Shown here: positions 5,387 to 61,894 of the stretch, piece by piece | Layout: every line of letters starts with the position of its first letter | Numbering within the stretch: the stretch's first letter is position 1 | Assembly: GCF_963675165.1 (NCBI RefSeq) | Contig: NC_087389.1 | Location: forward strand, 654,001-718,000 | DNA length: 64,000 nt | Source: Halichondria panicea | Lineage: Eukaryota > Porifera > Demospongiae > Suberitida > Halichondriidae | Direction: 5' to 3' | Notes under the pieces: generated by a model | Told to the model about the DNA's origin: nothing | Seen by the model: only the letters and a program-made list of their open reading frames with translations | Databases searched by the model: none | Position numbers and translations under genes: made by a program

Positions 5387-8300
5387 TGTGTGGGTGTGCA
5401 CACAAATTACACTACCATAGCTAAGCAGAATGAAAATAAGATGTAATAGCTATTATAATTATAGCTGACAATGTTACCATAATTATTGTTGCTTACTCAG
5501 CTCTCAGTGCTCTCTGGAGAGCTTCTTCTACTCGTCCTCTCAAATCTTCCTCACTGACATTAGCTTGGGAGAAGAAGGCATCGATGGTCGAATTGATTTC
5601 AACCAGAAGGTCCAAAAACTGCAGATAAAAGCTGTAAACCAAGCACAAAAAACACATTAATAGAACATACCATTTCAGGGACTAAATCGTGTTGAAGCGA
5701 CAACGTAAAATTCTCTCTCCTTGCAATTTCATTGATATCAGTGCGGCTGCGATTGACCTCCCCCTCCAAGCGGGCAATCAGTGTCAGCAGGTTTCCCAGT
5801 AACTCCTCCCCTATAGCTCTGGTTGCGTTGGCAGACTCTTCAACTAGGGCAGCTGAAGACCGACTTAGTTCAACTTGTACCAAAAATGATCGTAAACTGT
5901 CCACTTGTTCTTGTATGCTCATTAGAGCTTCCTCGGCCAAGCGCACAGCTGTCTGTGAGTTATTCAGAGCAGTGATGGAATCAGAATAGAGGCTGCTACA
6001 TGAGATACCACCGCCACAGGTGTCACATGACACACCACCACAGTCGAGCGTACAGTTCACTACAGTGCTATTATCTGCCCCACACAGAGCTCTGTTAGAC
6101 TCGGCAATAAACGCTTGATACACTTGTACTCTGTTGTCGATAGTAACCAGGGTCTCATCAAGCTGGACTAGCGTAGATTCAAAATTACTCGAGACGAGCG
6201 TGTTATTGTAAACTTCAAGAGAATTGGCAATCAGGCTTAAAAATGTGGTAATATTTTCACTGACAAGACGACTTGCTACGTCAGAACGTTCAAGAGCTGT
6301 GCGTGCAAGTTGTAAAAATTCCTCATAGTTGACAACTGTAGAAATGTTTTCTTGAGCAAATGTTAGCGAGAGATTACCGAATTCCATGTCCAGTTGCAAG
6401 AGTGAGAGTCTTATTATCTCGAGCTGCTCTGTGATATTTACTGGTATTGGTTCCAAGCTTTGGATTCTACCCTGTGTTTGGACGGCTCTCTGTAGCAAGC
6501 TCTGAATGCGATCAAGCAGTGCACAGACGATTGAGTGGGTGGTGTTTACGTCAGATGCAAGAGAATCGATCATACTCCCGTTCAGAGCAGCCTTGATATC
6601 CGCTACTAGGCTCAATAGTTCCTCTATCTCGGGAGCTACACTAACACTGGTCTCATTCGTGAGATTCAACGAGGTGATAAAATCAATTGTGGTTTCGACT
6701 TGATCCTCTAGCGACGTGATTTGCTCGATCCATTGTTCAGTACACTCGTCGCAGGGTTGACAGTTGGGGAAAGTCCCACTGGATGAGGCAGAGCAAGAGT
6801 CACAACGGTCCCCAGTAAATCCCTCGGCACACGCACACACCCCCGAGGTCTGGTTGCAGACTGGAGAGGAGGAGCCAGCCAGGTGGCAGCTGCAGGCTGT
6901 GTGTGTGTGTGGGTGTGTGTGTGTGTGGGGGGGGGGTAACACACTAACATCATTCATAACAATCAGTTTGCAATACTGTAGATTGTACGGTAAAACAGGA
7001 TATGACATCATCATTACGACCATGAACTGTACAATAATTATTATGGAATACTTATCTGATATTTTTGTATTAAACGAAAATGTTTGCCAGTAGGAGTTTC
7101 TACCACCATTACTATATACTCATTCGTTACCCACTCACGTGTGCACACACCACCCCCACTGTCCCAGTATCCCTCAGCACAGCGATCACACGGCAGTATA
7201 GTGAGAGGCTGGGTCCGATCGTAACCATCCACACACCGCTCACAATCTCCGCCCATCGTATTACCAGTACAGTTCATGCACTCTCCAGACAACGGGTCAC
7301 AAATGCTCGACTGAAAGCTACAGAAACATCTCACACAGAGGGCAAATTCTCCCCCAAATGGAGGATCTGTGGTGTAGCCATTGGCACATGTCTCACAGTT
7401 TGCTCCAACCCGATTGGACGGACAGGAGCAGCGCTCCACGTAGCCCACCTCCTCTAGAGGTTGCTGAGCTGGTCCCTCGATTGAGGAGTTTGATGTTGCA
7501 AAGTTTAGAGAGAAAGAATGCAAACGAAGCGAAAGAGGCTGTAAAAAGTGTCATTGCAACAAAAAATTATATAATATCTAATTAAAGTTGTAATTATAGC
7601 TGCTTACCTGATCACACGTTAGAGTCAGTCTCATAGCTCGGATGTCAGCCAGTGTCTTCCTGACATCCATTCTGTTAGCCTGTCTTCTGAAGTAGTACCG
7701 ATCCAGGATAAAGTTCCCAGCAGTGAGCGGAATCTAAATCAAGGAAATTAAAATTAAGGGTTCCCTGTATTTGTAGAGTACTAGAATCGGCTCTGTAACT
7801 AGAGTTCTGGCGGTCCAAATTCAACGATTTTATAATTTTCTGAAAGCTTAGAAGGAGCTCTTTCAGATGGTATTCTCAACTCTCTATTGAAACGGGTCAT
7901 AATTTCCCATTTTTGGAAAAATACCATGGGCATTATATAAGGCTATAAGCCTACGGTATTTTAATTTTAACACATCATCTGAAAGGCCTCCCTCTAAGCT
8001 TTCAGAAAATCGAAAAATTAATGTGATTGTAAAGTTATGGGCGTTCAAGAGTATTCGTTTTTAATTTTTTACCTCTATTTCGGTCGGCTCTGGTCCCACT
8101 GGCGGTAGAGTGGTCCTCAGCTTGTGTCTAGTTCTGAAGCTCAGTCCACTCTCCAACTCTAGCGTCACCTGACATTGGGGGGGTGACAAATCCCCGCCCC
8201 CCAGACTGAGGTTTAGAGAGAGGCTCTGACCATACGCTGTTCTCTTGTCGCCAAGCAACTCGGATGGGAAGGAGAGGTACACGGACTGCGAGGATGATGA

Positions 8301-29988: not shown

Positions 29989-32900
29989 ATGGAGCCTGAA
30001 GAGCATGCTCTCGGTGATCTCCCAAAGCTGAACCATTTTCGTGTGGAGGATGCATATCATACTTATGGAAATGGAAAGAAGCTGAAGAAAAGTAGAAATG
30101 CAGTAAGCTAACACAGTTGCAAAATATTTTCCAAGTGCATGTTACTGAATAAATGCAGGTCTCAACTAAAGATGTTCCCAGAGAACCTGTAAAACAGAAG
30201 CATATTGAAGTTGCTGGATTTTCTAGCAAAGTCAAACCAAACAATTTTGCTTTTGTGAGAGAACCCAAATACACACAACCTACCTACTTTGCGGATTTGA
30301 ACTATTCAATAATTAGGGAAGATAATATCTCAGAAAAGTACAAGCAACTCAGAAAAATATCTAATGAAAAGCAACAGGGAATTAAAACCAATTTTCGCTT
30401 GCCAAAAATTGTGGATAAAACGAACCCTTCAAACATTGTGGGTAGAACGAACCCTTCAAACATTGTGGGTAGAACGAACCCTTCAAACATTGTGGATAGA
30501 ACGAACCCTTCAAAAGCTGTTAAACGTGACCAACTGAGCTCTGTATTACATCTTAAGCAATCTCAACGCAAGAGCATTCCAAAACACTTTAGTCCACTCA
30601 CACAAGCAATATATGCTAATCGCGCTCTGCAGGAAGAAGCAAAATATTGGTCTACTGATGGTACCACAAATAAAACGTTACAGGAAGGGAAATCAAGCAG
30701 TATCTCAGAAAACTTGGACATCAGTCCACTCACCCAAGCAATATATACTAACCGTGCTCAGCCTGAGGAAGAAGTAAGATTATTGTCTACTACTGGCTCA
30801 ACAAATCACAAAGGGAAATCGAACAGTACTAGTACATCAGAAAACTCGAACATCGGTCCATACATCCTACCAATAAATGCTAACCGTACCCGTACTTTTC
30901 GGGAAGAAACAAGATACTGGTCTACTCCAACTGGTACAACAAATCACAAAGAGAAATCAAGCAGTACATCAGAAAACTTGGACATCCGTCCACACACTCT
31001 AGCAATAAATGATAACCGTGCTCAAGCTGAGGAAGAAGTAAGATTATTGTCTACTACTGGCTCAACAAATCACAAAGGGAAGTCTAACAGTACCAGTACA
31101 TCAGAAAACTTCACCAGTTCACACACCCTAGCTAACCCTGCTCTGCAGGAGGAAGAAGCAAGATATTTGTTTATTGATTCAACAAATCACAAAGAGAAAT
31201 CAAACAGTACTAGTACATCAGAAAACTTGGACATCAGTCTACACACCCTAGCAATGAATGCTAACCCTGCTCTGCAGGAGGAAGAAGCAAGATATTTGTC
31301 TACTGGTTCAAATCAAAAGTTACACAAAGGGAAAGCAAACCGTACTAGTACCTCAGAAAACTCGAATATCAGTCCACACGCCCTAGCAAGAAATGCTAAC
31401 CGTGCTCCCCTGGAGGCAAGCCCTTGGTCTACTGGTAAAACAAATCACAAGTCACTGAAACAGCCATCAAAGACTGCAGATAATGAAATTGAACAGGATG
31501 TCGAAATATCTCACACAGCAAATCAAAAGTTACACAAAGGGAAAGCAAACCGCACTAGTACCTCAGAAAACTCAAACATCAGTCCACACGCCCTAGCAAG
31601 AAATGCTAACCGTGCTCCCCTGGAGGCAAGCCCTTGGTCTACTGGTATAACAAATCACAAGTCACTGAAACAGCCATCAAAGACTGCAGATAATGAAATT
31701 GAACAGGATGTCGAAATATCTCACACAGCAACGCTTGGTAACTCAAATTTCATTCAAAAACAAGAATCTCTATCCCAGCCACAATATACCTTACAAAAAC
31801 CAACGGCGGCTCTGTACGGAGAAAAACAAGAAAAAACAAGGTCTCTATCCCAGCCACAATATACCTTACAAAAACCAACGGCGGCTCTGTACGGAGAAAA
31901 ACAAGAAAAAACGAGGTCTCTATCCCAGCCACAATATACCTTAGAAGAACCAATGGCCCTGTACGGAACAACAGCAGCTGGTAATACTACCAAACCCTCG
32001 CAAACTACCAGAAAATCAGCAAATAACATTGTTGCAAATGCGTTCAACCAAGACTTAAATGTGCAGCAAGGTAGAAATGAATTTCAGAAGAACCGAGGAT
32101 TCAGACAAAAATTAAAATGGCCACCACAACAAAAACTTTCACAGGATAAAAGCAATGAGAAGAAATCTGCCAAGAACACTGAACAGAAGACCTTATATAA
32201 CAACTCAAATTTTATTCAAAATCCTGAAGAAACGATGCAGCCGCAACACAAAAACCAAATACATGGGCCTCAGTTTTTACAAGAAGAGTTGCCAATGGCT
32301 CTGTATGGAGCAACATTAACTGGCATTACTACCAACCCCTTACAACATAATCCCAAAAAACCAACAATTATTGTGAATCCAGTCGAGCAAGAGTTCAATC
32401 TAAAGCCAAGTAGAAGAGAACCTCAAAAAACTCCAGAAAGATTAAAATCAAAATGGCCAGAAGAATCACCACAAGTAGCTGCGTCTACCAGCGACCATAC
32501 TTCATCCTCATTTACCAAAATACCAAATCACAGGAGCTCTCTGACAAATCCAAATACTCAAAGACTTCATAGGTTTCAGAATGATGAAACTCATAAAAAA
32601 AATAATGGACAGTCGATAGTTAATAATACATTAACAATGGATATTAAGCCTAAGGAGTCTTTAAGCAACAATAGCAAAGATAATATTGCAAATAAGATCA
32701 GAAACTCGAGTATAGACAGTGACCGAGGCAGACGATTTAGTTATGGTTCGCAGAGAAATTCTATTACCACCCCAATCGAGAAGGATGGCAGCAACACAAA
32801 ACAGTTTTTAGCTCCCTGTATTCTAGTGAACGCTCAACAAAGTCAGGAAAACAACCTATTGAGCTCCTCTAGCAACTGGAACTCACGTGCATCTTTTTCA

Positions 32901-33449
32901 GGAGAGCTTGGACCTATACAGACGAGAGACTCTTCTCCAGGAGAACTTGTACAGGCAGGAGACTCTTATTCAGAAGGACTTATACCTATGCAGGCTAGAG
33001 ACTCTACAGAAGAAGGACTTAGATTGTTGCAGGCTAAAGACTCTTCAGAAGAGTTGGGATCTATACAGGCAAGAGACTCTTATTCAGAAGGACTTGAATC
33101 TAGCGATACGGGGAACAAGCCATTACAAGAAGTTGTCACAGATCTCGTTCAACAGCTGGTTGAGCCACCTTGTGATCCAGAAGCGCAGCATATTATACAC
33201 AGTGGGCTTGCAGACATTAAAGAAGAAGAAGAATATTGGCTTGACTTTGAAGTTCCAAAACTGACTCCTGAGCTAAACGAAGTTCGCCCTTTATCTTTTA
33301 CTCGTGCTTTTGCATTCTCCTATTTCCACTTATTCGACATTCAAAAGTCCAACAATATATTACTCGATCCGTTACCTGTCACCAGACAAAAGAAAAGATT
33401 TCCCAGAAAGAAACCACTAATAGTCAAAGAGTGGAAATCTGCTTTTTAA
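29989..33449 (+). CDS. Orphan, disordered, repeat-rich basic protein (2 exons)
   Basis: Exons 29989-30102 and 30159-33449, phase 0, 1134 aa. Exon 1 gives MEPEEHALGDLPKLNHFRVE. The protein is rich in Ser, Thr, Asn, Gln and Lys, with no recognised domain, membrane segment or signal peptide. Internal repeats are clear: four copies of a nine-residue NPSNIVGRT-like unit (about residues 125-160), several TSENSNISPH-type units, a perfect-frame 70-residue tandem duplication (31311-31730), three copies of SLSQPQYTLQKPTAALYG, and repeated ARDSYSEGL-type units near the C terminus. Outside the repeats, the N-terminal 70 and C-terminal 60 residues (ending KRFPRKKPLIVKEWKSAF) look most constrained. It is transcribed from the promoter shared with UTP20, which hints at broad expression; function unknown. 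Confidence 0.85.
31311..31730 (+). repeat. Recent 210 bp in-frame tandem duplication
   Basis: Copies 31311-31520 and 31521-31730 differ at only about five positions and keep the reading frame (70 codons each). Confidence 0.95.
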
Positions 33450-33679
33450 AGTATACAATTTTTTTATTCCACATAAAGAATAATAATTATTGAGTATTAA
33501 ATTTTTGGTGATCTTGTGCTGCGCACACACGTTGTCGATTTCACGTGAGCTAGTTTGAGACATGCGCAGTTTTTAACAGTGGCGAAGTAAGCTTATTAGT
33601 TTGTTGATCCCTACCTATACATTCTGTAAAGGTGGGAGGGGCTTGTATTCATTTACAAGGTAAACAAAGCCAGCTGAAA

Positions 33680-34945
33680 ATGAGCCAATTGGAAACTCTG
33701 TGGATTATAAACGCTACGAGCAAAAACCTGAAGTTGACTGGAGTTCATAGCACTCTCATGAACCAATGGAGCTTTACTGACATTCAAGCACAAAGCCAGA
33801 GTAACTTTGCGATTGAATTTAAACAGAGCGGCTCAGGGGCTAAAGCCGATGTTACGTTCCAACTGGAAGGTACAAACACTCGTTTCCAACTCCAAGCCTC
33901 AGATGCAACTGGTAAACAGCTCCAAGTAGACTGGAGCAGCACGGACCCACGTCAATACACTGTCTTCCCTCCTTTCATCACCGGCGCTACAGCAGCGAGG
34001 GTTCGTTGGGTGCAAAACGGAACTGCTTGTGTCCTGATACAAGACAAGCCGGCTCTCCTACCCTCTCCATCACAACTCAGCAATCTGGGTACGCAATGGA
34101 TGGAGCACTATTCTGACGTCATCCACAACCTGACCTTGACTGAGATGTGCATACCAGGCACTCACGATTCCGGAACCTATCAACCTGATTTCGTACTCGG
34201 ACGAGAATGGATTCGAACGCAAAGTCTCAGCCTTCGAAATCAACTCAACTTGGGAATTCGATCTCTGGACCTTCGCATTGGACAGAACAAACCCGGTGAT
34301 TACATCATCACTCACGATACCTGGAAGACTAAGTATTCCCTCAGTCAAGCTCTAACGGAAGTGGTAGATTTTATCAAGGCCACAAAAGTGGAAATCGTAA
34401 TTCTGGATTTTCATCGCTTCAACATATTAAACAAAGGATCAAGTTTCGATTTCGACCAACTCAAAGCTCAAGTCAAGTCCACACTCGGAGGTTACTTTGT
34501 TCCAGCTCCTGAAGGAGTTGGTAAGACACTGTTTGAGTTGTGGCACCGTCCAAATGCTGCTCAAGAACGGATTATTATCACATGGAATGATGATGGCTCT
34601 ATTGACCGCAGCTACATGTGGCCGGGGGTAGACCAACACTGGTACTCCACGGCCGATAGTCAAGACAAGCTGTTCAATTTCCTCTCAGCTGATTTTACTA
34701 ATCCTCCCCCGAGGAATAAAATGTGGGCCTCGTGTGTGTTCAGAACTGCAAGCGTCTTTCAAACACCATTTGTGAATGCCAAAGACCTTAGAGGAAAAGT
34801 CGATAGCTGGTTTTACGGCTGTGCTGATTGGTCGCTAAAAGCTAACATACTTATGACAGACTTTTGTCCCGATTACAACAATGTCATACATGCTGCTATC
34901 TGTGCATCTCTACTGAACGGCAACAAGAAACAATCTCTTCATTAA
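33680..34945 (+). CDS. Intronless PI-PLC X-domain protein (bacterial-type phosphatidylinositol phospholipase C-like)
   Basis: Single exon, 421 aa; the ATG at 33680 is the first in frame (the open frame runs upstream to 33632 without ATG). The X domain covers about residues 150-420. The two catalytic histidines are visible in PGTHDSGTY and ITHDTW. A conserved acidic strand is VEIVILDFHRF. It has no Y or C2 domain, so it belongs with PLCXD or bacterial PI-PLC enzymes, not the Ca-dependent eukaryotic PLCs. The first 145 residues are beta-rich with no signal peptide and were not recognised. Every other long gene here except this one is split by introns. A retrocopy or a transferred gene is possible, but base composition is not obviously different. 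Confidence 0.85.
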   Translation: MSQLETLWIINATSKNLKLTGVHSTLMNQWSFTDIQAQSQSNFAIEFKQSGSGAKADVTFQLEGTNTRFQLQASDATGKQLQVDWSSTDPRQYTVFPPFITGATAARVRWVQNGTACVLIQDKPALLPSPSQLSNLGTQWMEHYSDVIHNLTLTEMCIPGTHDSGTYQPDFVLGREWIRTQSLSLRNQLNLGIRSLDLRIGQNKPGDYIITHDTWKTKYSLSQALTEVVDFIKATKVEIVILDFHRFNILNKGSSFDFDQLKAQVKSTLGGYFVPAPEGVGKTLFELWHRPNAAQERIIITWNDDGSIDRSYMWPGVDQHWYSTADSQDKLFNFLSADFTNPPPRNKMWASCVFRTASVFQTPFVNAKDLRGKVDSWFYGCADWSLKANILMTDFCPDYNNVIHAAICASLLNGNKKQSLH

Positions 34946-39296: not shown

Positions 39297-41631
39297 ATGC
39301 TAGGTACTGCAGGTTGGCTGCTTGTATCAACTTTAACTGTAGTTACATGCAGTTCTAACGTGTATGCACTGAGGTATATGCTAGGAGATGCTGTGTACAA
39401 TGGTACTGCAAGTTGCTACAGTGACAATGGTATCAATACAAACAGCACCTGCTGCTGTCCTGAAGAAAGTCCAACATTTGTACAAGAAAGTAACTCCTGT
39501 GTCCAAGATGCCACTCTCCTAGATGGTAAGCGTTACTATTTATTATACCTGATTATACAAACTATATTTGTAGAATGTGACCTACAACTTGATGTGAATA
39601 TCAGCTCAAGCTCAAGCGTTGAAACTATACCGTTTGTATTTGTTCCAAGCAATACTACCAAAGAGCTCCACATTCTCCCCAACAGCGGATTCACTGTCAC
39701 CAGTGATCAGAAGGCTATAATTCGCTTTAAAAATGATTCTATGGCTTTACAATGTGACTCTATACAGAACATTAGTTTAATCTCAGGACAAAATGTTAGC
39801 CCCTCACTACAGCTAACGGACTTTAGGATAGAAAACAACTCAATACAGGTAAAATACACTCTGTATAATAATTATGCTGTACTCTTCACCATGGATACTC
39901 AGTACTTGTCTTTTGTATGTGTACAAGTACACTCTGTTATTATGAAAACACTTTCACTGTACAATCAATACAGATACTAACCCAAGAGCGATATTCTAAC
40001 GCTTTATACAGACTAGACCTAAATTGCAATTGCAACATCACAGAAGCTCGGAAATGCCTGCTGTTCAAGCTTGTTGATTCACAGCAAGAAAGCATTGACA
40101 AATACACATTTAGAGGTACTATACCCCAATAGAAATTAAGTTATTCACATCATGCATGTCTTGTATAAATCTGTATTCCCCAAAATACCCTTGCCAGTAA
40201 CAATTGCACACACTTTACAAACAAATGAAGAACTCTCTTTCAACTTAGTAAATTAATATTTTACAGATTGCTTAGTTCCGCCTACCACCACCGAGATGAC
40301 AAGTAGCGCTCCGAGTTCCACCACCCCAGTAATGCCTACTGACGAGCCGAGCATCTGGTTGAGGTACAACCGTCTTCTGATCTACGTGGTTATCGGTGGA
40401 GGCTGTGTAGTGGGCTTGATACTAGTGTTCATCATTATGCTGTGCATATTGGCTGGCTGTATAGCAAGAAGAAGGCGATATAGAGCAAGAAGAAAACAGC
40501 AACTAGAAAGAGGCACACAGTATCACATATCTAGAATGCAAGGTATGATTTTAATTACTGTGTATATATATAAATTATGCAATTATTATTAATTAATTCA
40601 ACAGGGAGACCTAGTGCACAAACTCGCAGAAATCTCTCCCACTCAATAACAAACCTCCCGGAAATTGAAAGTGAGTTATTTATTCATTCATAGCAGTATA
40701 ATAATTACGTCATAATAATGTTGTTAATTTGGTCACCAACTCAGACCATTCTCCTGAAGACACGGAGCCACAAGAGCCGCAACCTCCCACACTCGTTAAA
40801 GCAGAGGTGCCAACCATACCAAGAAGACCGGTTGAAGAAGATGATCAAGTTACATTCGGTACGTTCAAGCGTCGTCCTAAAGGCCAGAAACCAGATGAAC
40901 AGCAGTCCTCGATAGAGAAGCAGCCAACACGACCAAAGGAATTGCCACCAAAAGCAGCAACAATGCCTAACATTCCTGTACTTATACAGCCACCAAAGCC
41001 ACCATTGCAACAGATGTCTCTAACAGACACACCCACACAAGCATACTATGAAACTGTTGTTCCAGTTATTAAATCAACCCAGGCTGATGAACAAACTGAT
41101 TCTGAAGCATACGATATCTTAGACCATCAAAGAGCAGCACTAAAAGGGAGGCACTTCACCTCACCAAATTACTCCCAACTAAGCATTAGCCGCTCGAAAA
41201 GCCCCACACTGATTGACACTGGTCATTCGTACAGCCTAATAACCCCCCGAACACGGACTCCCTCCACTCCCCCACCTGTCCCTCCCCCATTGTCCCCATC
41301 TTACAACGGACTAGAACTACTGAGACCTCAGAACAGATTCTCAAAAGACATTCTAACAAGCTCGTGGTCTAAGCCATCGCACACGGACAAAGTAACTAGC
41401 CATATTACCAAACAGCCAGTTATATCTCAAGAAGATGATCTGTATGACTATCCTACGAAGAAGAAAGCTGCCCCTAAACCACAGAGAGCAAGAAAAAGGG
41501 GAGCGGTCAAAGTAACACATGATGGATCTGAAGTTATCTACGATGTGCCACCAGGCAGAAAGATATCTGACGATAATACTTCAATAGATTCGTACGTAGA
41601 TATGACACAATACACTATCACAAAACTATAA
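39297..41631 (+). CDS. Type I membrane receptor-like protein with SH2/SH3-type docking tail (6 exons)
   Basis: Exons 39297-39525, 39574-39848, 39974-40115, 40267-40542, 40605-40670, 40745-41631; 624 aa. A signal peptide (MLGTAGWLLVSTLTVVTCSS) starts a 255-residue ectodomain with many N-glycosylation sites and cysteine clusters (STCCCP, CNCNITEARKC), then a Thr/Ser/Pro stalk. One membrane helix (LIYVVIGGGCVVGLILVFII) is followed by ARRRRYRARRK. The cytoplasmic part has poly-proline stretches (STPPPVPPPLSP) suited to SH3 or WW domains. Its tyrosine sites include YDIL, YDYP and YDVP, the last resembling CRK-type SH2 ligands. No named family was recognised. It lies 307 bp downstream of the similar 37968 gene. 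Confidence 0.85.
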
Positions 41632-41877: not shown

Positions 41878-42121
41878 TCACCTATCTTTTGTTTTCTTTA
41901 TACTAATAAAACCAGAGGGTGAGTTCTCCTTGTCCATGGCAGGGGGGGCGTCCGGTATAACCTGTCATCAAAACAGATGAAAGGCTATTACTAATTAATG
42001 TGACTGGGCTTACCATTGAAGGTTTATAGTAGTTATGGACTACAGTAGCTCCTAGCAACATGGACCCAAGGGAAGATGCTGCAAACATCAGATAAGACGG
42101 CCACGGCAACCCAGCTGGCAT
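41878..42121 (-). CDS. UQCC6: UQCC6 (BRAWNIN), complex III assembly microprotein (2 exons)
   Basis: Coding exons 42121-42014 (36 codons) and 41961-41878; 63 aa. The start MPAGLPWPSYLMFAASS and the centre GATVVHNYYKP align well with vertebrate UQCC6/C12orf73, which begins MPAG and has AEVVHRYYRP. One membrane helix covers about residues 10-27. The family protein sits in the inner mitochondrial membrane and is needed for ubiquinol-cytochrome c reductase assembly. The ATG lies only six bases after the stop of UQCC5 and in the same frame, inside the same exon (42198-42014). The C-terminal 25 residues are divergent. Translation must rely on re-initiation, leaky scanning, a second promoter or trans-splicing; sequence alone does not decide. 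Confidence 0.88.
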
Positions 42122-42127
42122 CTCTCG

Positions 42128-42376
42128 CTAGGAGCTTCCCGAGGACTGGCCTCTTCCCTTTAACCTTCGCTCAGACTCTTTTCTTACAGCAGTATCGTCT
42201 GCCAATCAATGAACATTAATTAATACACAATTTCCCAGACTCTAGATCTACTACGTACAGAAAGTTTCTTTCCCCACTCTGACATGAATCATAAACCACT
42301 CAATGGAGGCTCCAAACACAAAGAACACAGGTAAACTTCTATACACACCAAGTCTTTTCCACAAGTTGGAGACCAT
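42128..42376 (-). CDS. UQCC5: UQCC5 (SMIM4), complex III assembly microprotein (2 exons)
   Basis: Exons 42376-42259 and 42198-42128, phase 1, 62 aa. The core LPVFFVFGASIEWFMIHVRV then GKETFYD and RKESERR is nearly the SMIM4 signature (human form: LPFFFVLGGTMEWIMIKVRVGQETFYD). One membrane helix lies at about residues 17-35, with basic flanks (LWKRLGVYR). In mammals it supports early cytochrome b assembly of complex III together with UQCC6. The stop TAG is followed by six bases and the UQCC6 ATG, so both ORFs share the 42198-42014 exon. Too short to be found by usual length cut-offs. Confidence 0.9.
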
Positions 42377-43142
42377 TTTTATTATTGGAGGCTTGTTTTT
42401 CACTTTATTGGATACAGAAATTGAGCTACGCCCCCTTTTGTTTGAAGTGATTCACTGCCCACTTTGTACAAACCACTTCCGGTGACCCAAAGTAGCGCTT
42501 GGGTTATTCATGGGGCTCCGGAGCTGGTGGTTGGGTGTCGGGAAACTGGCCCACCCCAGAGCGCTATTTTATCCGGAGTTCTGTAACTGACACACTTATG
42601 CTACCCTAAAAAGTAGTACTTATGCTACCCTAAAAAGTAGTACTTATGCTGCCCTCAAAAGCAGTACTTATGCTACCCTAAAAAGTAGTACTTATGCTGC
42701 CCTCAAAAGCAGTACTTATGCTACCCTAAAAAGTAGTACTTTCAGGGCTTACCCCCTAGGTGGTACTGGCCAGACCGCTTTTTTTTTTACATGTGGCAGT
42801 GTCGGAGGGCCTAGGGCAGGGTGAAGTGGGCCCCTAGCTGTACTGTGCAGAATCTAGTGTGACGGATCAAATGTGTCACCATAATTACTTGTGTCACCAT
42901 AATTACAATAGGTATACTATTGACCTCGGACACACATGTTTCTGAGGCAAAACCTTATTTTTATAAACCAAATTATAATTATACAATAACAGTGAAAAAC
43001 AGTTCAGTTTTGATATAAGCTGTTGACATGATGTATATAGTTAGTAATGATGAATTTGACATAAAAATGAACTGAACAATCACACGACGTTACAATAATT
43101 ATTACAAATTGAATATTAATTAATGAAATAATTGATATGTGT
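42377..43142. other. Intergenic stretch between UQCC5 and GRIP with minisatellite
   Basis: It holds the UQCC5 promoter side, the minisatellite at 42594-42737 and the 3' region of GRIP. Flanking the minisatellite are inverted phrases around AAAGTAGCGCT (42490) and AGCGCTATTTT (42561). No further gene was seen. Confidence 0.6.
42594..42737. repeat. Six-copy 24 bp minisatellite with hairpin-forming units
   Basis: The 24 bp unit occurs in two versions: ACTTATGCTACCCTAAAAAG followed by TAGT, and the same with CTGCCCTCAAAAGCAG. The order is type 1, 1, 2, 1, 2, 1. Both versions keep a CTAC/GTAG or CTGC/GCAG stem. Confidence 0.95.
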
Positions 43143-45787
43143 TCAGCAGTAAGATTCCCCTACTACTTGATGGTGTTGCCTAGCAACTGTGAGTTCAAGG
43201 TGCTCTCCGGAATGCTTCAACAGAGGGTCTATCTTCTGACAAGTGTGCTCAGCTAGTAGCAGTGTGTCTTCAATCTGTGTGGAGGAAACAAACACATAAA
43301 ATAAACCAGCAGTCCGCACTTGGTAAGGGTGACTAAGTTAAAAAATTATAGCAGATACATTTTTGATAAGGGGTCATTGTGTACACACAGCAATAATAGC
43401 TCACCTTTAAGACAATGTCATAAGGCAGCAGTCCAGCCTTGTCTGCTGGGCTCCCATCCTTGACAGCCTTCACAAAGATGCCTGGATCATAGCATCCGTC
43501 AGCGAGGCTGAAACCAAACGAAGTACCAAGTCTTCTCTTGAGATAAATGTGGTGAACGTTGAGCTGGTTCTTAGGTATATCAGTCTTCATCTTATCATTG
43601 ATTTTCTCGCTCTCGCTAACGGACACAGCCTCGGATTGGTTGCCATGGGGCTCTGAGTCACTGTCTTGATCTGAGGAGCCAGATTCGGCCAAAGCTCTCA
43701 TCGCCTTCTCAAATTCGTTAGCTTTGTGGATAGTCTGTTTGTAGTCTTGCATAGTGTTGGACGGATCAAAACTGGAGATAGACTTTGATTTTGGTTGTTC
43801 AGTGTTCTGGTGTTTTGATTTCATAGCTATTGAGAAGTCTGGAGCACTTGTTCTCCGAAGTAGATCAGGTTTCATGAGAGATGCTTGGGAGGAAATGGCG
43901 GCGCCATTACCCATCTTAGTAGGATAGGTGATCGATTCAGATACGACCACTTTCGGGGGTTTTCTAGTCAAACTTCTAGTACTAGGATTGTGATCCAAAT
44001 CAGTAACTGCGTTCAATACTTTCACGGTAGTAAGTACAGCTGTAGGAGAGCTGCTTGGTTCTTGATTTTGACTGTCTTCTTCTTCGTATCCTGGTAAAAT
44101 ATCTGTCGGTGGCCATTCTCCAGTACTCTCCTCCGCAGTGACTGTTGGTGTTGCACACGGTAGCAGCGAGGGTGACTGCGTGGGGGGCGGTTCAGGTGAG
44201 TTCATAGTTGACTGTGAATCCCCCCCACTGACGGAAGTGCTTCCTCTACGCTCTGGCCTATCTATATCCGCACTGTTAGAGTCGACTGACGACAGCTTAC
44301 TGTCTGGCCGTTCGACCTCGAGTACATGAATTTCTGAGTTTGTTTCTTCATTTTCGGTACTTTCTACAGCCACTTGATTATCTTCTGGAACGTCACTAAC
44401 TTCAAGTAATGGCTGATCTTTGACTGGAGACGGTGGAATGCGCTTGTCCGTTCCCAGTTCCAAACTAGAGGAGAAATTGGGCGGATCCGATGGTGTGAGG
44501 GGAGAAACTCGGCCTATTAATTTTGGTGGCTTAAACGACGATCTTCTTCGAGATTTAAAGTCCCATTTCTTGCTCCCAGGACGGTGCATAGGTAAAGATG
44601 GCCTCCTAGTCCATTGATTTGAGGTGCTGTCTTCCCAGCCACTGTATTGCGATAGTTCTTCATCAGTTTCACTCCGAACATTAATTGGTGGGGGTAGTCT
44701 AGGGGAAAACCCCAAACGACGTTGCAACTCAATAGAGGATTGTGGAGGAGCAAAAGAATAGCCATCAACACCATTCTGACTGAATACGTATTTTCCAGAG
44801 TTAGACAGAGCACTTGACGGTCTTGAAAAAGCACTTCCTTCAAATTCCGATCGTGTTAATTGGCTGAGAACACTGTCTCTACCGGAGGGATCGATTGGTT
44901 GTGCATAGAAGCTTCCGTTGTACGAGGAGTCATCCACGCTTATCGTGGAGTGATTGTCTGGAGTACTTCGACCGGAAATGGTGGAAGCGATGGTGGATTG
45001 TGAGAAACGTCGTGCCCTGAGGGCTAGTAGACGACTGTAGCTCTCTTGACCCTCTGCTCGGCTGCCCAGTCGACCAGTCCCTCGGAAACTGCCAAGCCGG
45101 TGAATCTAGAGAGAGAGGGGAAAATTATAGCTAGTTTATTTTTGACTTGAAAAAATGTTGTAATTGTATGGCAGAAAATTGTACATAGTTTACTTTTAAG
45201 ATTATACATGTAGCACTTATAGTACCTCCCTCCAACACACACACACACTGTGCTCACCTTCCCAGGGGGGCTGCCTCGTCCCTTCCTTGACCTACTGGTG
45301 GCCTTGCGTATCTTGAGCTGTACCACGTCCCCCGCAGTGCTGAGCATGTACACGGCCTGGGGCAAAGTGGCATTGACTAGACTCTGTCCATTGATGGCCA
45401 ACACACTGTCTCCAACATTCAGGGTGCCAGTTCTGAGGGAGGTACACTATTAATTAATCAATGCCAAAACCATTAACTACACGTACATTAGTAAACACAC
45501 CTGTATACTACATCTTTATAGAGATCTTTTAAGATTAGTCTCTCTAAACTTAAGGTATTCTAATTCCAGCGAAAAAGAGAAGTCTAAAGATGTTGCCTCT
45601 ACATGTACTGTACATGCATGTACACATGCAGACACTCACTTGTAAGCTACACCATCTGCTTTGATCTTAGAGATGGTGACTGGGTGTCCGGGTGTGTCCC
45701 TATTGCCAGTGAGGGTGATGCCGAGGCTCTGCTGGTTACGATGGAGCACCACTGAAAACACTACAGTCTCTGGTACTGTAGGGACTG

Positions 45788-55843: not shown

Positions 55844-56705
55844 TCATGTAGAATGTATGCTCCATCGCTTGCTCACTCTCCGCCGTAATTTTGTCGTATT
55901 CTCGAGGAACCTAAACTGTATGGTGTTTGGTGGCGGCGACAAGTTTACCTTTCCAGTCTTTTCAGGTGGACACTCCCCTCCAAGCATCATCCGGAGCTGA
56001 GCATTGATCGTTGCTTTGTCGGTGCCAATATCTGCCAGCCTTGTCACTATTTTTGCAGCAAGATCCAGCTTCTTTTGCTCGTTTTGAGCGTTCACCCGCT
56101 TGCTTTTCTCTTGTACAAGCCACACATCGAGTTCTGATTTAGCAGCGTTTATCTCGCGCTCCAGCTTCAATTCTCTTGCCCGTTCATCCATTTGTTCTTT
56201 TTTGTCCTGATATTCCAGCTGCTTTTGTTTCGTCTTTTCTTCCTCCAGTCTCAGTTTAGCTTTGGCTCCAATGTTTTGTATCTCAGCCAGCTGCAGTTGT
56301 TGCTGAATCTCGAGCTGCTTAATTCTTTCTTCAGCCTCTTTTACCAAACGCTTTGTTTCCTCCTGTTCTCTAGTCTTCTGCACCTCAGCTTCCAGCTCTG
56401 CCTTCCTCATCTCCAACTGTCTGGCATGTTGGGCATCATCCTCCTCCCTCTGCCTGGCCTGTCTTGCAGCCTCTGCTTGCCTAAAAAATAATATCAAAGA
56501 ACAAGTTTGTAGTTATTTCTACTCACGTTACTAAATTCTGTCTTCTCACTTGAGCACACCTTCAGGATAGAAATGAAAGGTAAGTGTTGAGTACGTATAA
56601 TTATTTGAATAGGACTTACTCTTCACAGGGGAGATCACCACGTATCTCTTTCAATCTATATCTGCCATATTGTCCCCCGCAGTCTGTGCATATCTTCCGA
56701 GGCAT
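55844..56705 (-). CDS. Z1: Cys4 zinc-binding coiled-coil protein (3 exons)
   Basis: Exons 56705-56620, 56559-56527, 56480-55844; 251 aa. The N terminus MPRKICTDCGGQYGRYRLKE is followed by DLPCEEC, so two CxxC pairs about 20 residues apart form a likely zinc ribbon or knuckle. Exon 2 is exactly 33 nt. Exon 3 is a long Glu/Lys/Gln coiled coil (about residues 40-200). It ends in a conserved block IGTDKATINAQLRMMLGGE, then PPPNTIQFRFLE and a basic tail. Paralogs Z2 and Z3 have the same exon phases. No known family was recognised; a nucleic-acid or protein scaffold role would be a guess. Confidence 0.85.
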
Positions 56706-59125: not shown

Positions 59126-60035
59126 TCAGTCAAAGCCTACTGTAACTGGAGCTGTGCGCACTCGTTGACGTTCGATCTTTCTCTTGCTCGCTTTCGGCTG
59201 TTCTTTTGTCATATTCTCGAGAAACTTAAACTGTATGGTATTAGGTGGCGGCGGCAGGCTTACTTTCTCAATCTTTTCAGGTGGAAGCTCCCCTCCAAGC
59301 ATCATCCGGAGCTGAGCATTGATTGTTGCTTTGTCTGTGCCAATCTCTGCCAGCACGCTCACTAATTTGGCAGCAAGGTCCAGCTGCTTTGTACGCTCCA
59401 CTGCTTCAATCTCCTTTCTCTTTTGCTCGTTCTGAGCATTCACCTGTTCGGTTTGCTCCTGTTTCAGCTTCACCTCGCGGTCTGCATTAGCGTTGTTAAT
59501 CGCACATTTCCGCTCCAATTGTTTTGTTTCTTCTTTCATATTGTCTCTTTTGTTCTGAGAATCCACTTGTTTTGTCTTTTCTTCCTCCAGTCTCAGTTTA
59601 GTTTTGGCTTCCACCACTCTTGCTTCGATCCTCTGCTGCTCATTCTTTGCTTGTATCTCAGCTGCCTGCATTTGTTGCTGAATCTCGAGCTGTTTACTTC
59701 TTTCTTTAGCCTCCAAACGCTTTGTTTCCTCCTCTTCTTTAGTCTTCTGCACATCAGCTTTAAGCTCTGCCTGCCTTATCTCCAACTGCCTGGTATGTGC
59801 TGCTTGCCTACAAAATAATCCCACTATATTGCAAGAAACAATTATTATTTTCTACTCACGTTACTAAATCCTGTCTTCTCCTTTCAGCACACCTTTAGAA
59901 ATAGGAAAGGTTAGTGTTGAGTACGTATAATTATTTGAATACAACTTACTCTTCACAGGGGATATCATCACGTATCTCGGTCCATCTGTATCTGCCATAT
60001 TCTCCCTTACAGTCTTCGCATATCTTCCTAGGCAT
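59126..60035 (-). CDS. Z2: Cys4 zinc-binding coiled-coil protein (3 exons)
   Basis: Exons 60035-59950, 59892-59860, 59807-59126; 266 aa. The N terminus MPRKICEDCKGEYGRYRWTE and IPCEEC repeat the two CxxC pairs of Z1. Exon sizes 86 and 33 nt are identical to Z1. The coiled coil is followed by the same block (IGTDKATINAQLRMMLGGE, PPPNTIQFKFLE) and a basic tail KASKRKIERQR. Introns are also related in sequence. Z1 and Z2 are close duplicates that have diverged mainly in the coil. Confidence 0.87.
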
Positions 60036-61045: not shown

Positions 61046-61894
61046 TCATGCATAATATTGTTCCTGTATAGGTGGAGCGCAACATCCTCCCTTTGCTTGT
61101 GGTACATCAATGTCTAGCATGTTCATTAGTGCAGCGAACATGGTTTTTCTTTCTGCTTCTTGGTAATTTTCCAGAGTGTTTGTCACAGCTCGGAATTGGC
61201 CCAGCATTTGAATTCGGAACGCCATTACTTCACCTTGGGCTTGCATTAGCTTTGTTTCTTCCTCGGCTTGAACTTGCTTCGTTGCCTCGATGACTTCGGC
61301 TCGTTTGGTTTGGTTCTCCTCCTTTGCTTGGGTCTGTTTTGTTTTCTCCTCCTCAATCCTCAAGTCAATTGCTTTGGCCTCTATTTCACTTAGCCTCTTC
61401 TTGACGTCTAGCTGCTTTAGAGTAACCTTATTCTTTGCTTCATTTTCTTTGATTCTCTCTTCAACATCTTTCTCGTGTATGGCACGTTTTGTTTCTTCCT
61501 CAGAATCTTTTACATGTTTGAGACGTTTAGTTTCCTCTCCAGCGTCTGTTGCGTGGTTGTTACGTTTCGTTTTTTCTTCTGACTCTTTTGCATGTTTGGC
61601 ATTTTTTGTAGCATCATCTAATTCCCTCCTTGCCATCTCTCGTCTGTGCTCTTCCTCACTAAAGGATCACCTTAATTTATATTAATTATGCTAGTCAGAA
61701 ATCTTACCTAGTTTCACTTTTTCTTTTTTTCTCTGCACATCTGTGATGGTATAATAATAATAGTATTATTAGATTTAGTTGCATTGTGCAGCATACTTTT
61801 TACAGGTTAGACTGTCAGTTGGCTGGTGGCCCCATATTCCATAGTGCGAGTTGCAATCGTCACAGATATTCTTGCCCCATTTTGGAGTAGCCAT
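61046..61894 (-). CDS. Z3: diverged Cys4 zinc-binding coiled-coil protein (3 exons)
   Basis: Exons 61894-61797, 61740-61708, 61658-61046; 247 aa. The N terminus MATPKWGKNICDDCNSHYG and SLTCKKC keep both CxxC pairs. Exon 2 is again 33 nt with the same phases. The coil is rich in EETKR-type repeats. The C-terminal block differs from Z1 and Z2: MLGQFRAVTNTLENYQEAE, then AALMNMLDID and a CC-containing end GGCCAPPIQEQYYA. It is an older member of the family. Confidence 0.85.

Follow-up and report, generated by a model that had tools for sequence, protein, structure and literature searches.

A probable sponge orthologue of the bicistronic sloth1-sloth2 gene: UQCC5 and UQCC6 share an exon in Halichondria panicea

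In the sponge Halichondria panicea, a 64,000-nucleotide stretch of contig NC_087389.1 (forward-strand positions 654,001 to 718,000; hereafter the window, whose numbering is used throughout) carries on its minus strand the genes for two microproteins, UQCC5/SMIM4 and UQCC6/BRAWNIN, separated by six nucleotides (nt) within a single exon. We consider this pair to be, with a probability of about 0.8, the orthologue of the bicistronic sloth1-sloth2 (SMIM4-C12orf73) gene, in which one message would supply two microproteins. The original prediction, made from the sequence alone, held that such a unit had not been described, but the Drosophila bicistronic gene sloth1/sloth2 is already published, as are cases in a choanoflagellate, a sea squirt, and the lamprey (PMC9681215). 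The sponge pair is a new example of a known bicistronic arrangement, not a first discovery. The gene model is as follows.

42259-42376, minus strand: UQCC5/SMIM4 coding exon 1, with its ATG at 42376 in the context ATAAAA[ATG]G
42199-42258, minus strand: intron 1, 60 bp, GT..AG, phase 1
42128-42198, minus strand: UQCC5 coding part of the shared exon 2, ending in TAG at 42130-42128
42122-42127, minus strand: intercistronic spacer CGAGAG, 6 nt
42014-42121, minus strand: UQCC6/BRAWNIN coding part of the shared exon 2, with its ATG at 42121 in the context CGAGAG[ATG]C
41962-42013, minus strand: intron 2, 52 bp, GTAAGC..ACAG, phase 0
41878-41961, minus strand: last coding exon of UQCC6, with the stop TGA at 41880-41878

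All of the predicted coordinates of the junction held on re-derivation: the UQCC5 stop and the UQCC6 start lie six bases apart in the shared exon 42198-42014, and the two open reading frames (ORFs) are in one frame. The UQCC6 ATG is 77 nt into exon 2 and, in the predicted spliced message, 195 nt downstream of the UQCC5 AUG. To define the exons, GT/AG pairs were enumerated, giving six open joins for UQCC5 and 15 for UQCC6; for each gene the pair that restored the family motifs was chosen, and only these two products were scanned against Pfam. The join 42259/42198 yields a UQCC5 product of 62 amino acids, MVSNLWKRLGVYRSLPVFFVFGASIEWFMIHVRVGKETFYDTAVRKESERRLKGRGQSSGSS, which matches UPF0640 (PF15114) at 67 bits against a cut-off of 27 (E 1.3e-18, profile positions 17-63 of 67). 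The UQCC6 product from the join 42014/41961, MPAGLPWPSYLMFAASSLGSMLLGATVVHNYYKPSMVIPDAPPAMDKENSPSGFISIKKTKDR, has 63 amino acids and matches DUF4516 (PF14990) at 65.8 bits, again against a cut-off of 27 (E 2.6e-18, profile positions 1-43 of 46). These scores bear out the two predicted identities. By simple hydropathy alone, the best 19-residue window of UQCC5 is residues 14-32, with a mean Kyte-Doolittle value of 1.53, which would be compatible with a single hydrophobic segment.

The whole assembly (131,455,214 bases in 39 contigs) was searched with family profiles in six frames, exon by exon and without crossing introns. UPF0640 gave two matches, both above the cut-off, one at the UQCC5 locus and the other at a place on contig C4 that has an internal TGA, while the control search was positive in 0 of 14 genomes. 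DUF4516 also gave two matches, the UQCC6 locus above the cut-off and one at 13.4 bits, below it; the control gave a match in one of 14 genomes, below the cut-off. Each family is therefore present at a single intact place in this six-frame search of the 131-Mb assembly, and the two places adjoin on the same strand with the UQCC5 type first and only a few nucleotides between them (6 nt, in one exon), the layout of sloth1-sloth2. The dicistronic arrangement of stop, 6 nt, and start that had been proposed for this locus stands. The adjacency exceeds what chance would give: under a naive uniform model, a given start would fall no more than 10 nt past a given stop with a probability of ~4e-8.

Other searches added no further relatives. 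Neither protein found one among solved structures, where the best hits (E 0.77 and 0.84) look like chance, and none of 15 pattern matches to UQCC5 in viral contigs was confirmed. Paralogy of the two families has been proposed by Bosch et al. 2022 (PMC9681215); pairwise BLASTP of the sponge UQCC5 and UQCC6, both of them short sequences, gave no alignment at E <= 100.

We propose that a single promoter upstream of 42376 would give one spliced mRNA comprising three coding exons, from which UQCC5 would be translated at the first AUG and UQCC6 at the AUG 195 nt downstream. Scanning ribosomes would reach the second ORF by leaky scanning, by short-range reinitiation, or by both. The products would be separate inner-membrane microproteins acting jointly on newly made cytochrome b. 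This complex III function is assigned to both sponge proteins by analogy with the human and fly orthologues. The human SMIM4 and C12ORF73 proteins are described as interdependent and, as members of a complex that includes UQCC1/UQCC2, as interacting with newly made cytochrome b (PMC8719881), in agreement with the original prediction that the two act in the same early step of cytochrome b and complex III assembly. An inner-membrane location and a role in complex III assembly are published for the human and zebrafish UQCC6/BRAWNIN proteins.

Three observations weigh against this model. UQCC1 (PF03981) gave no match in the assembly, with a control positive in two of 14 genomes, and UQCC2 (PF20180) likewise gave none, with a control positive in 0 of 14; the six-frame search misses genes split by introns, and neither result is evidence of absence. 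The third lies in the start codons. A at -3 and G at +4 mark a strong start context, and the UQCC5 AUG has both. The UQCC6 AUG, with G at -3 and C at +4, is adequate and weaker than that of UQCC5. A first start weaker than the second, as in the fly, is not what the sponge pair has; that order is a feature of the fly gene and is not known to define the kind.

With so strong a UQCC5 start, simple leaky scanning is unlikely to be the sole route to UQCC6. Two AUGs lie between the two starts, each having T at -3. One shares the frame of UQCC5, and the other opens 13 codons that close before the UQCC6 start. Since neither would carry a ribosome beyond the UQCC6 start, the interval is permissive for leaky scanning, a mechanism backed by mutational work on green-algal bicistronic genes (PMC11291117). 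With the start strengths reversed relative to the fly, a very short leader may play a part, as may reinitiation or an alternative transcript. The candidate routes to UQCC6 are leaky scanning, reinitiation, read-through, and an alternative transcript.

The most credible alternative, although an unlikely one, is that UQCC6 is translated from a separate message, driven by a promoter in intron 1 or in the upstream coding sequence, or carrying an alternative 5' exon joined to the acceptor at 42198 so that the UQCC5 start is skipped. The 77 nt of exon 2 before the UQCC6 ATG would suffice as a leader, and such a message would escape the restriction that the strong UQCC5 start would otherwise place on UQCC6 output. 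The earlier statement that the shared exon offers hardly any space for a separate promoter was too strong, since a UQCC6-only message could still arise from intron 1 or from a different first exon joined to 42198. Intron 1 is just 60 bp, however, and in the fly precedent one transcript serves both ORFs (PMC9681215).

We also doubt, while keeping it in view, a version of the bicistronic model in which UQCC6 is made mainly by termination-coupled reinitiation over the six in-frame bases, with occasional read-through, in place of the leaky scanning proposed for the fly, and in which the promoter lies in a dispersed repeat module upstream of UQCC5, described below. If this were true, the UQCC5:UQCC6 ratio would be set at a stop codon. 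Read-through of the TAG to give a UQCC5-UQCC6 fusion alongside the separate proteins is improbable. The shared frame with one stop between the ORFs would allow it, but the chance of a shared frame is already 1 in 3, and the human proteins are encoded by separate genes (PMC9681215). Highly improbable is a trans-spliced operon, in which the pre-mRNA would be cleaved and a spliced leader added ahead of UQCC6. Spliced-leader addition is reported in hexactinellid sponges (PMC7986045), but to judge from the sequence, six bases seem too few to hold both the end of a UQCC5 message and a UQCC6 acceptor.

A diverged copy of the locus on contig C4 bears on the reality of the junction. This duplicate (about 1912-2620 at locus L003, G000:C4) includes the upstream repeat module and aligns with 42056-42795 at 84% identity over 756 columns. 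Identity among aligned bases is uneven along the copy: 96.6% in a tandem array within the module, 86.4% in UQCC5 exon 1, 93.0% in the UQCC5 part of exon 2, 73.0% in the first UQCC6 part, and 51.1% in intron 1. Translation from the start codon of the copy itself passes through the conserved middle of UQCC5 in a shifted frame, and the UQCC5 part of exon 2 lacks 14 of its 71 bases, at its beginning. The copy's UQCC6 departs from the conserved frame and reaches a stop after 21 codons, 28 of the final 42 bases of the shared exon are absent, and downstream of that exon we found no further similarity between the copy and the window. We read the C4 copy as a pseudogene. Its junction is TAG, the six bases CAAGAG, and ATG, the same arrangement of stop, 6 nt, and start as in the window, which makes a chimeric join of UQCC5 and UQCC6 very unlikely. 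We accordingly give negligible probability to an assembly chimera or a chance joining of two genes, for which no supporting point was found and against which both this junction on another contig and the naive adjacency probability argue; the junction is real.

The first bases of intron 1 (GTACGTAGTA) are kept in the C4 copy, pointing to duplication at the DNA level, while the remaining intron aligns poorly (51%). An origin in which the repeat module dragged along its downstream flank was considered and dropped, as weak similarity seems to extend past the 5' edge of the module; examples are a match of 21 bp with 90% identity at 42863-42843 and one of 24 bp at 42983-43006. These short stretches are not cleanly collinear, since some of them overlap one another on the C4 side. 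We tentatively prefer an ordinary segmental duplication as the origin.

The region upstream of UQCC5 contains the following elements.

42449-42788, minus strand: dispersed repeat module, 340 bp in the window copy, 72 bases before the UQCC5 ATG
42594-42741: 24-bp tandem array within the module
near 42482: ETS-like motif CACCGGAAGTGG, inside the module

Queries with 42594-42795 and 42380-42600 gave at least 48 and at least 39 matches in the assembly, respectively, the window copy included in each. Of the 39 matches, we inspected 20 (L024-L043). With the window and C4 copies set aside, the homology stops within 42442-42453 in all 18 remaining copies, in 14 of them exactly at 42449. The ETS-like motif is intact in 18 of the 20 copies, and TATAAA follows it near the downstream module edge, also in 18 of 20; the window copy has TACAAA. 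The core ACCGGAAGTG occurs once in the 64-kb window, both strands taken together. Among copies measured, the module is 306-416 bp long. Viewed by eye, its edges resemble imperfect inverted repeats, to which no class was assigned, and no target-site duplication was recognised at the copies. The sequence downstream differs between groups of copies, suggesting that the module may be a promoter-bearing mobile element, and it may contribute the promoter of the UQCC5-UQCC6 unit. Downstream genes were sought in the ORF lists of six loci. At one of them (L038), an Oxidored-like domain (PF09791) is encoded in a stop-to-stop open frame that starts some 170 bases past the module and in its orientation; this one case is by itself no evidence of a general promoter role.

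Several other features surround the pair. Upstream of UQCC5 on the same strand, a 590-residue open frame (43333-45105, minus) ends in a partial PDZ domain, whose scores below the Pfam cut-offs probably reflect a domain split at an exon end; the frame at 43143-43337 has no Pfam match. Convergent with UQCC6 is a proline-rich open frame of 308 residues (40705-41631, plus) with several tyrosine motifs and no Pfam match. Elsewhere in the window are laminin-type EGF repeats in two open frames (5599-7550, minus), a PI-PLC X domain in a 445-residue open frame (33608-34945, plus), and, adjoining the latter, a repetitive 1098-residue open frame without a Pfam match (30153-33449, plus). Three Lys/Glu-rich, coiled-coil-like open frames lie on the minus strand (55844-56512, 59126-59851, and 61046-61666); at least the first two are clearly alike by eye, and the three may form a local tandem family. 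Querying the assembly with silicatein gave 22 matches. Eight were fetched, six with the ordinary cathepsin-type cysteine and two with serine in its place (CGASYAF in L015 and CGSSYAF in L014), a replacement that we take to be a mark of silicateins and that makes a sponge the likely source.

The closest known system is that of the fly. Drosophila sloth1/sloth2 (CG32736-CG42308) are described as orthologues of human SMIM4 (UQCC5) and C12orf73 (UQCC6/BRAWNIN), and their ORFs, 5 nt apart (GCAAA), are carried by a single bicistronic transcript (Bosch et al. 2022, PMC9681215). Translation was tested there by reporters, whose data support leaky scanning; the two proteins regulate complex III assembly, and a stoichiometric complex was proposed. 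A later review restates the bicistronic description (PMC9953451). The sponge pair has the same two orthologues with the SMIM4 type first and a spacer of 6 nt against 5 nt. It differs in that its single transcript is a candidate one, whereas the fly gene has been shown to give a single mRNA, and in that its ORFs are in frame. The starts differ as well: the fly has a non-optimal first start (ACACATG) and an optimal second (CAAAATG), whereas the sponge has a strong first and an adequate second. With its strong first start and in-frame spacer, the sponge pair is a natural variant on which the leaky-scanning model of the fly is testable.

The word 'sponge' is absent from the main text of PMC9681215, and we found no sponge case of the linked pair in the open-licence literature, seen mostly as titles and the starts of abstracts; one may still be reported. 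By their published description, a choanoflagellate (Salpingoeca urceolata), a sea squirt, and the lamprey share a similar bicistronic architecture (PMC9681215), and the sponge joins these and the fly as lineages with a linked pair. The human proteins belong to the same families, with a presumed shared role in complex III assembly, but their genes are unlinked, on chromosomes 3 and 12, as the pair is on different chromosomes in jawed vertebrates generally (PMC9681215). The original prediction that the vertebrate genes are unlinked is right for jawed vertebrates and fails for the lamprey, in which they are linked. Collectively, the comparison supports the published idea of an ancestral linkage lost toward jawed vertebrates: most simply, the UQCC5-UQCC6 linkage is ancient, and it is the jawed vertebrates that have lost it.
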